NCBI RefSeq assembly: GCF_900110605.1 | Contig: NZ_FOFI01000002.1 | Coordinates: forward strand, 434,001-498,000 | Reading direction: 5' to 3' | DNA length: 64,000 bases | Source: Epilithonimonas lactis | GTDB taxonomy: Bacteria > Bacteroidota > Bacteroidia > Flavobacteriales > Weeksellaceae | Part shown: positions 61,782 to 64,000 of the stretch, piece after piece | Layout: every line of letters begins with the position of its first letter | How positions within the stretch are numbered: position 1 is the first letter of the stretch | Notes under the pieces: generated by a model | The model's database searches: none | Seen by the model: the letters and a program-made list of their open reading frames with translations, nothing else | Told to the model about the DNA's origin: nothing | Position numbers and translations under genes: made by a program

Positions 61782-61810
61782 TTGCAAATTCAAAAAAAAT
61801 AATATCTTTG
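61782..61810 (+). promoter_or_regulatory. Strong promoter of a small transcription unit
   Basis: TTG (61782-61784), 18 bases, TATCTTTG (61803-61810). Nearly ideal; predicted start of RNA near 61816. Confidence 0.7.
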
Positions 61811-61815
61811 CACCT

Positions 61816-61985
61816 GAAAATCAAGTTCAACCAACAAAAATAACAACGAAGCAATGTTCAAATACAACTTACATACATCAGTAGGATTGCCTTTTGCAAA
61901 GGCGAGGCTTCGTGGTTTGGTACATTCTTAGAACAACAGTATAATGAAATATCAAAACCCGGAGTCGTAAGATTTCGGGTTTTTT
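61816..61985 (+). ncRNA. Putative structured small RNA or leader transcript
   Basis: About 170 bases between a near-consensus promoter and a strong terminator. ACGAAGC (61846-61852) can pair with GCTTCGT (61907-61913), and inside this lies a perfect hairpin GCCTTT-TGC-AAAGGC (61889-61903). A 25-codon ORF spans both helices. It could be a regulatory RNA, a small-peptide mRNA, or an attenuating leader for the genes downstream. I recognise no named RNA family. Confidence 0.5.
61854..61931 (+). CDS. Short ORF within the small transcript (25 codons)
   Basis: ATG to TAG, beginning MFKYNLHTSVG and ending LRGLVHS. Basic (3 Arg/Lys pairs by eye) with no membrane helix. It covers the predicted helices, so translation and folding would exclude each other, as in leader-peptide systems. 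No run of one amino acid points to a classic attenuation signal. Confidence 0.35.
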   Translation: MFKYNLHTSVGLPFAKARLRGLVHS

Positions 61986-61988
61986 ATT
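61954..61988 (+). terminator. Terminator of the small transcript
   Basis: AAAACCCG / CGGGTTTT with four more inner pairs (two G-U), then T5. Confidence 0.8.
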
Positions 61989-62024: not shown

Positions 62025-62128
62025 CTTTTTTTTAGGAGCTTAATCCCGCTTTCCGCTGTATCTTTTTTTGCCAGCGCTTTTTTCAAGCCCACGCAAAAAA
62101 AAAGGATGCCGCTGCAATCGGGGCTAGG
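62025..62128 (-). repeat. Dispersed intergenic repeat, copy B1
   Basis: Read on the minus strand: AGCCCCGATTGCAGCGGCAT, CC plus T-run, a central hairpin region, AAAAAAAGATACAGCGG, then GCGGGATTAAGCTCCTAA. It shares the plan of copies A1/A2 and is close to copy B2. Confidence 0.75.
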
Positions 62129-62143
62129 ACAAACTCCTGCCAT

Positions 62144-63652: not shown

Positions 63653-63764
63653 TGATTGATGTTGGATGCGGGATGTTGGGTGTTTGATGTCAAAAACCTG
63701 CATTTTAATTCTTTTGAAAATCATTTAATAAATTATAACAAATAGTAATAAAAAGGAGAAAAAC

Positions 63765-63868
63765 CATAGCCTCGATGTAAACGGCATCCTTTTTTGTTGC
63801 AGACGCAGCGAAGCGGAGACTGTGACAAAAAAGATATAGTGAACAGCGGGATTAAGCTCCTAAAAAAA
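63765..63868 (+). repeat. Dispersed intergenic repeat, copy B2
   Basis: Plus-orientation copy with GCATCCTTTTTTGTTGC, a central hairpin region, ACAAAAAAGATATAGTG, GCGGGATTAAGCTCC and a run of A. It ends exactly at the prfH start codon and supplies its A-rich ribosome entry region. Confidence 0.75.
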
Positions 63869-64000
63869 ATGGACAAAATAATACAAATTACCTCGGGAAG
63901 AGGACCTTTGGAATGTCAATGGGTAGTTGCCAAAGTTCTGAAGGTCTTTCTTGAGGAAGCGAAACAAAATAAAATCGGTTACGAAATCATCCATCGTGAA
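63869..64000 (+). CDS. prfH: Peptide chain release factor homologue PrfH (partial, cut by the window end)
   Basis: The first 44 codons are present. IIQITSGRGPLECQWVVAKVL matches the N-terminal RF-H signature (an S-x-G-P-x-E-C pattern), split here as IIQITSGRGPLEC plus QWVVAKVL. The GGQ peptide-release motif would lie beyond the window. PrfH is paired with RtcB in many bacteria: it recognises ribosomes cut in the decoding centre and frees the peptide so that RtcB can reseal the RNA. 216 bases separate the two genes, mostly repeat copy B2. Confidence 0.85.
   Translation, partial: MDKIIQITSGRGPLECQWVVAKVLKVFLEEAKQNKIGYEIIHRE

Follow-up and report, generated by a model that had tools for sequence, protein, structure and literature searches.

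A candidate leader-ORF attenuator upstream of rtcB-prfH ribosome-repair genes in flavobacteria and their relatives

Introduction

Trp-type attenuators alternate between helices 1:2, 2:3 and 3:4, and the position of the ribosome decides which of them form. In Pseudomonas aeruginosa, the passages of two papers that deal with the PA5471.1 leader peptide (PMC12057347, PMC13041342) describe it as controlling armZ (PA5471), an RtcB-like gene adjacent to prfH (PA5470). According to these passages, the leader transcript is constitutive, complete translation of PA5471.1 lets segments 3 and 4 pair as a terminator, which does not arise when ribosomes stall. ArmZ also de-represses the MexXY pump, and according to review text in the same sources (PMC12057347 / PMC13041342) it is apparently only in MexXY regulation that a leader peptide controls an anti-repressor.

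Few cases are known of how bacteria sense ribosome damage and turn on rtcB-prfH. The portion of PMC9223846 on E. coli RtcB2-PrfH reports that it protects from colicin E3, which cuts 16S rRNA, while the portion of PMC12606134 on E. coli rtcBA describes control by RtcR, a sigma-54 activator; rtcB is likewise controlled by RNA or ribosome damage there, through an activator protein. Closer to the DNA studied here, the sections of PMC9723704 on structured 5' leaders of Flavobacterium psychrophilum propose leader-peptide attenuation for amino-acid operons, and the term "RtcB" has no occurrence in the main text of that paper. Searches of the open PubMed Central literature listed no report of a leader on rtcB-prfH in Bacteroidota.

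Here we describe a predicted structured transcript upstream of rtcB-prfH in a 64,000-nucleotide stretch of the Epilithonimonas lactis genome (the window). We most likely see in it the 5' leader of these genes rather than an independent transcript, judging from its sequence and that of its relatives.

Results

A probable structured leader with alternative pairings lies upstream of rtcB-prfH

An earlier note on this DNA had described a near-consensus promoter, a 25-codon ORF, two helices and a strong terminator at positions 61782-61988. All of these elements were confirmed, and they are conserved beyond chance (Table 1). The flavobacterial -7 box is given as TAnnTTTG at -12 to -5 in the promoter section of PMC9723704, where the F. 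psychrophilum leaders have the same promoter consensus as the leader described here; since the box TATCTTTG matches this consensus, we placed the transcription start at about 61815. The resulting 175-nt RNA has a predicted folding energy of -44.2 kcal/mol compared to -27.6 ± 3.7 kcal/mol in 200 shuffled sequences (z = -4.54), none of which folded as low.

Table 1. Features of the predicted leader and its surroundings, together with a second leader type seen in related loci. Positions refer to the window unless a locus is named.
Feature	Position	Strand	Details
-7 promoter box TATCTTTG	61803-61810	+	matches TAnnTTTG; predicted start ~61815
Segment A (ACGAAGC)	61846-61852	+	directly 5' of AUG; outer helix with B
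Leader ORF, 25 codons, MFKYNLHTSVGLPFAKARLRGLVHS	61854-61931	+	stop TAG 61929-61931
Outer helix	61846-61852 with 61907-61913	+	A:B, fold prediction
Inner hairpin inside ORF	61887-61894 with 61898-61905	+	fold prediction
Segment B (GGCTTCG-T-GGTTT)	61906-61918	+	codons 18-22; ends 10 nt before stop
Segment C (AAACCCGGAGTC)	61955-61966	+	terminator 5' arm; alternative partner of B
Segment D (GATTTCGGGTTT) plus T run	61971-61985	+	terminator 3' arm
Terminator stem	61955-61966 with 61971-61982, then T run	+	loop GTAA 61967-61970; intrinsic terminator spans 61955-61985
Flavo-1 (RF01705)	62038-62129	-	between predicted attenuator and rtcB
rtcB, 463 aa	62261-63652	+	PF01139 271.5 bits; first gene behind terminator
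Flavo-1 (RF01705)	63764-63857	+	between rtcB and prfH
prfH	63869-64000, runs off window	+	TIGR03072 214 bits, cut-off 166.65
Second attenuator-like leader	L256:3664-3802, L259:3663-3801, L249:2825-2963, L238:4374-4515, L213 ~3260		

Segment B of the window can pair with A or, given one bulged U, with C. The four segments could therefore alternate as they do in trp-type attenuators, with A:B, B:C as an antiterminator and C:D as the terminator. The B:C pairing, which joins the 3' part of the ORF to the 5' arm of the terminator, was absent from the earlier note. A second tiny ATG-led frame (about 61943-61970, MKYQNPES, read by eye) opens shortly upstream of the terminator and extends into its 5' arm; such a frame is present in many, not all, leaders.

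The earlier note had held that nothing in the neighbouring genes explains this RNA, a view that the downstream rtcB-prfH genes overturn. The rtcB product scored 146.5 bits against TIGR03073, with the match beginning at codon 93. Since this is below the cut-off of 271.8 and prfH is adjacent, we classify this rtcB, on profile score and gene context, as a divergent member of the prfH-linked class. In the genome, prfH is complete (232 aa) and is followed by a gene encoding a TPR protein, the normal last gene of the operon. RtcB-like and PrfH genes thus lie downstream (PF01139, TIGR03072), as in PA5471.1-armZ-prfH. The Flavo-1 RNA elements that flank rtcB in opposite orientations scored 68.3 and 57.2 bits.

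Comparison with Rfam at gathering score revealed no family over the leader in the window, and by E-value no family was judged to cover it in the window stretch and 17 related loci. We rejected two candidates. BTnc005 (RF04178) gave a full-length match of 24 bits (E 0.0019; gathering score 174.8), mainly to the stem and terminator, and was judged a chance match, as no such match occurred in 17 related loci at E<=0.05; Thr_leader gave one antisense match of 37.6 bits, below its gathering score of 55.

The leader tracks prfH-linked rtcB

A DNA search of 98 genomes yielded 30 loci, 20 of which, the window's own included, were usable leader loci; the other 10 gave short matches only (L018, L020, L021, L024-L030). 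Two alignments were made, from 19 (A1) and 13 (A2) of the 20 loci, and 13 leaders served to build a covariance model, R1. In the 19 relatives, each represented by ~10 kb, rtcB and prfH lie behind the leader in 18, and the genes upstream of it vary by group: lon plus a DoxX gene, a gene for a protein starting MRHKIKNQ, or others. In one genome (G012, L034), rtcB is in two pieces of 91 and 348 codons, as if broken, and the leader is intact.

We then scanned the 148 genomes of the family, in which a TIGR03073 score above 90 bits marks 75 rtcB2-like loci. R1 placed a leader upstream of 60 of these, its matches ending 373-1234 nt before the TIGR03073 match, and a locus-level search added one more (G173:C4), giving 61 of 75. 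Thirteen of the 14 leaderless loci hold an rtcB paralogue without prfH in a single genus (g21), and none of the 13 had a leader at E<=0.05; the last leaderless locus, G137, is only 34% identical. Among 30 loci with both flanks available, all 20 with prfH had the leader and the remaining 10 lacked both. The prfH-less, leaderless paralogue (L051-L056, L058-L060, L077, L260-L262) is ~480 aa long in the two copies that we read, and several genomes of one genus also carry a prfH-linked copy.

At 60 bits or more, 49 of 50 R1 matches in these 148 genomes lay upstream of rtcB2. The other is an intact orphan leader in G028 (L045 / L019), the sole exception among the 19 relatives, in which rtcB and prfH are missing at the locus and the leader stands directly before the operon's TPR gene. 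Seven of 66 hits (E up to 8.3e-4) are not before rtcB2, and for these we considered whether genes other than rtcB2 might use the leader. We rejected this, as the hits besides the orphan leader, six in number (38-51 bits, inspected singly), are ordinary gene 3' ends with terminators. A further 46 hits were weaker (E 9.6e-4 to 0.01) and included one upstream of rtcB2 (G153).

Across the phylum, prfH scored above cut-off in 28 of 395 genomes: nine in the window's family, 17 in a second family of the order and one in each of two families of the class. R1 detected the leader in 9 of the 19 prfH loci outside the family (3.1 kb per locus), all in the second family; in the remaining 10, the sequence available upstream was often truncated or contained an inserted gene. 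The loci from the two other families, L175 and L176, had no leader in 1.1 kb upstream of rtcB, and we therefore narrowed the reach of the leader from the whole phylum.

Named genomes were sampled through an RtcB-alignment scan, using the best 80 of 588 confirmed stretches. These 80 loci come from Chryseobacterium, Epilithonimonas, Kaistella, Soonwooa, Halpernia, Cloacibacterium, Capnocytophaga, Flavobacterium, Kordia, Aquimarina, Tenacibaculum, Polaribacter, Myroides, Zobellia, one Sphingobacterium and others. The leader was found in 78 of the 80, 75 by R1 (E<=0.05) and three that R1 missed (L204, L213, L215) by a promoter-ORF-terminator scan. The two without it are L234, which lacks it in 3.2 kb, and L232, which has just 151 nt of upstream sequence. 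Seventy-three of these best 80 have prfH in the flank (70 by tblastn and three Capnocytophaga loci by profile), and seven have the leader and rtcB with no prfH in the flank. Pattern searches performed less well: a strict regular expression recovered the leader in 40 of the 80 loci compared to 75 by the covariance model, and a degenerate start-region pattern was too unspecific, matching 190 of 296 genomes as well as controls. Plasmid records gave no leader match. The known reach of the predicted leader is flavobacteria, their relatives and one Sphingobacterium.

Many relatives (L209, L186, L196, L201, L205, L255 and others) carry extra genes between the leader and rtcB. One type encodes a basic protein of ~245-260 aa without a Pfam match and another a PcfJ-like protein (PF14284), each judged from one scanned example, and in two Capnocytophaga loci (L196, L202) prfH lies between the leader and rtcB instead of behind rtcB.

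Expression of rtcB most likely depends on readthrough

The gene linkage described above bears on whether the RNA could be an independent trans-acting small RNA, perhaps a dual-function one encoding a 25-aa peptide, that merely lies upstream of rtcB. Such a role would fit its own promoter, strong terminator and strong fold, and also the orphan leader of G028, whose 10-kb locus has no prfH and whose genome has no rtcB2 (best TIGR03073 match 44.5 bits). However, the leader is closely linked to rtcB2, and the position of promoters argues against independence as well. In the 39 named loci free of inserted genes, TAnnTTTG occurs 28 times in the 2535 nt upstream of the leaders (a strict box in 25 loci, none in 14) compared to once, in a single locus, in the 7319 nt between terminator and rtcB. 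Since the promoter box is nearly absent from the latter interval, rtcB most likely depends on readthrough past the terminator. We therefore rejected the small RNA, which we regard as very unlikely, on linkage and promoter placement. The word "independent" in the earlier note does not stand for the same reasons: the leader tracks prfH-linked rtcB while the upstream genes change, and only 1 of 39 insert-free loci has a strict box behind the terminator.

Conserved helices include a predicted antiterminator pairing

The probable 5' leader of rtcB-prfH was also analyzed for conserved pairing. ORF and terminator were parsed in 106 leaders, 57 of them non-redundant; the parser truncated the ORF of L216 and missed that of L249 because the model match starts inside them. 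RNAalifold did not recover the outer helix on the first alignment, partly because MAFFT had misplaced the sliding A segment in some rows, and a model with a named structure was used in its place. Together, A:B, the inner hairpin and C:D had 95.1% of cells paired compared to a maximum of 50.6% when the helices were slid, and 18 of 27 pairs showed double changes, on an alignment fitted to these helices. Taken singly, A:B had 96.2% of cells paired with changes on both sides at 5 of 7 pairs, the inner hairpin 90.0% with such changes at all 8 pairs, and C:D 96.7%. In addition, A:B was stronger than with shuffled A in 45 of the 57 leaders (p<=0.05).

In most leaders, B resembles the 3' arm of the terminator and can pair with its 5' arm, C. 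The usual form of B is CUUCG, one bulged or mismatched base, then GGYYY. The B:C core motif was missing in 11 of the 106 leaders, and the remaining 95 cores covary as GGCTT/AAGCC (27), GGTTT/AAACC (21) and GACTT/AAGTC (11), with GATTT/AAATC and GACGT/ACGTC among further, single cores, although relatedness inflates such leader-wise counts. With the best B site chosen, 64 of the 95 cores pair at five of five places, 15 at four and 16 at two or three.

We assessed B:C further on alignment A5, which was fitted to A:B, the inner hairpin and C:D and not to B:C. This alignment derives from the loci of 46 of the 57 non-redundant leaders and has 45 rows, one antisense row (L019 minus) being counted. 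On A5, 88.2% of B:C cells were paired compared to 22-62% (maximum 62.4%) when slid, with 21 double-changed cells compared to 4.8 ± 4.1 in shuffles and a covariation of 0.166 compared to 0.124, neither value being reached in 500 shuffles. The number of pairs with a double change did not exceed that in shuffles (103 of 500), nor did the number of further pair types (413 of 500).

Swapping C among the 57 leaders gave a native total of -722.5 compared to -562.9 ± 17.6, and none of 2000 permutations reached the native value. Leader by leader, the native C outscored all foreign segments in only 8 of 57 cases, and the median share of foreign C segments that did as well was 12.5%. B:C outperformed shuffled B regions in 38 of 57 leaders (p<=0.05), and went beyond synonymous shuffles (p<=0.05) in only 19 of 57 when codons were drawn from the leader pool and 28 of 57 with uniform codons. 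On a quick rtcB tree, there were six supported independent pairs at the main covarying place, where B changed in the same direction in an average of 4.5 and in the opposite direction in 0.0 (median sign-test p 0.125); the second covarying place changed once, in step. The predicted terminator and antiterminator helices are mutually exclusive, as C can pair with either D or B, and both pairings covary.

The position of the leader ORF is conserved rather than its peptide

The ORF has exactly 25 codons in all 20 usable loci of the DNA search, and in the non-redundant set 53 of 57 leaders have one of 24-31 codons. Close 25-codon ORFs differ by 237 synonymous and 303 nonsynonymous single-nucleotide codon changes, and other frames are also open, +1 in 9 and +2 in 27 of the 57 leaders. 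Since the peptides also vary, it appears to be an ORF in this place that is kept rather than the peptide. In some leaders the GCTTCG motif lies in another frame, such that the amino acids change and the RNA motif, with its B:C pairing, is kept, which also argues against a dual-function small RNA. The test proposed earlier, conservation in relatives that keep the flanking genes, thus came out in favor of the helices and the presence of the ORF and not of a strongly conserved peptide.

These peptides also speak to a classical amino-acid attenuator sensing one charged tRNA; the most recurrent residue is Phe at codon 2 (37 of 57 leaders). The trp-like topology would suit such a sensor, and the passage of PMC13041342 on a Pseudomonas cca mutant reports that Gln3-Phe4 of the leader matter there. 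However, no run of one codon was found in the 106 parsed peptides, codon 2 differs in 20 of the 57 leaders, and the genes behind the leader serve repair and not amino-acid synthesis, so we regard this explanation as very unlikely indeed.

A predicted attenuation mechanism

The analysis instead points, with high probability, to transcription attenuation through a leader ORF as the control of the ribosome-repair operon rtcB-prfH(-TPR). In the 106 parsed leaders, a short ORF lies upstream of an intrinsic terminator before the genes that would be controlled. In 49 of 57 leaders, the distance from the end of the GAAG in A to the start codon is 2-7 nt, and in 40 of 52 the distance from the end of B to the stop codon is exactly 7 or 10 nt. 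A 19-codon ORF occurs in two leaders, where the stop codon abuts B; these would follow the same logic in another register. Given that A lies beside the start codon and B near the stop codon, a ribosome at the start would cover A and a ribosome at the stop would cover B. This conserved place of the ORF in 40 of 52 leaders, together with the finding that no riboswitch family of Rfam matched the leader in the window and 17 relatives, makes a ligand riboswitch or protein-bound leader with an incidental ORF very unlikely, even though conserved hairpins with covariation would be expected of one.

In the attenuator that we propose, transcription would start at about 61815. In healthy cells, the 25 codons would be translated quickly and the ribosome would pause at the stop codon and cover B, such that C would pair with D and transcription would end. 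Damaged or drug-blocked ribosomes would instead initiate and then halt, or advance only slowly, at the start or the first few codons, where they would cover A and leave B free; free B would pair with C as it emerges, no terminator would form, and the polymerase would read into rtcB and prfH, whose products would rescue and reseal damaged ribosomes. We infer the readthrough, its direction (with stalling as the "on" state) and ribosome damage as the natural signal. RtcB and PrfH act on ribosomes, which makes ribosomes blocked in elongation after initiation the likeliest trigger.

Masked folding of the transcript up to C in 58 leaders is consistent with this scheme. The median expected number of B:C pairs was 11.7 with a ribosome at the start, 11.2 with one at codon 8 and 0.3 with one at the stop, where 13 of the 58 leaders nevertheless kept at least 5 expected pairs. 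At equilibrium, the ribosome-free transcript before D preferred B:C (median 11.5 pairs, compared to 0.3 for A:B), so absence of translation would keep the genes off only if A:B forms first and holds. The alternative pairing, the covariation and the gene linkage thus lend support to the earlier suggestion that folding would depend on translation of the ORF and be connected with the ribosome-repair pair.

Comparison with known attenuators

The leaders described here resemble trp-type attenuators in their three alternating helices and differ from them in the place of segment 1, immediately upstream of the start codon instead of within the ORF, and in having no regulatory codon run. They share with PA5471.1-armZ-prfH, as described in the passages cited above, a leader ORF, a terminator and downstream RtcB-like and PrfH genes, with stall-induced readthrough being predicted in the present case; this likeness is one of architecture and downstream genes. 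Unlike PA5471.1, the present leaders have an ORF of 24-31 codons in most cases, A beside the AUG, and B in the 3' part of the ORF. They would be a form of the ribosome-stalling control already known in Pseudomonas, here in another phylum and with a layout of its own. The comparison suggests a broader connection between ribosome stalling and ribosome repair, with the armZ leader of Pseudomonas as an instance of it rather than a peculiarity of an efflux pump. The leader is a concrete candidate for a cis-acting sensor in Chryseobacterium relatives, flavobacteria and one Sphingobacterium, and it would make translation stress easy to report in these bacteria, in which mRNAs lack Shine-Dalgarno sequences according to the relevant portion of PMC9723704.

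More tentatively, and as a possibility that we would not quite favor, such leaders may be widespread sensors of ribosome integrity that respond to ribosomes initiating without elongating; the Pseudomonas logic would then be ancestral or have evolved repeatedly, and the efflux role of armZ would have come later. Since A abuts the start codon, the leader would under this reading report specifically on ribosomes that are able to initiate and unable to elongate, and damage to the decoding center would lead damaged ribosomes to switch on their own repair.

Separately, a second, different attenuator-like leader was observed upstream of rtcB in Tenacibaculum, Lutibacter and Aquimarina (Table 1). It has an ORF of ~20 codons and a terminator arm with GCGTCC, and in four loci (L256, L259, L249, L238) it stands in tandem with the standard leader.
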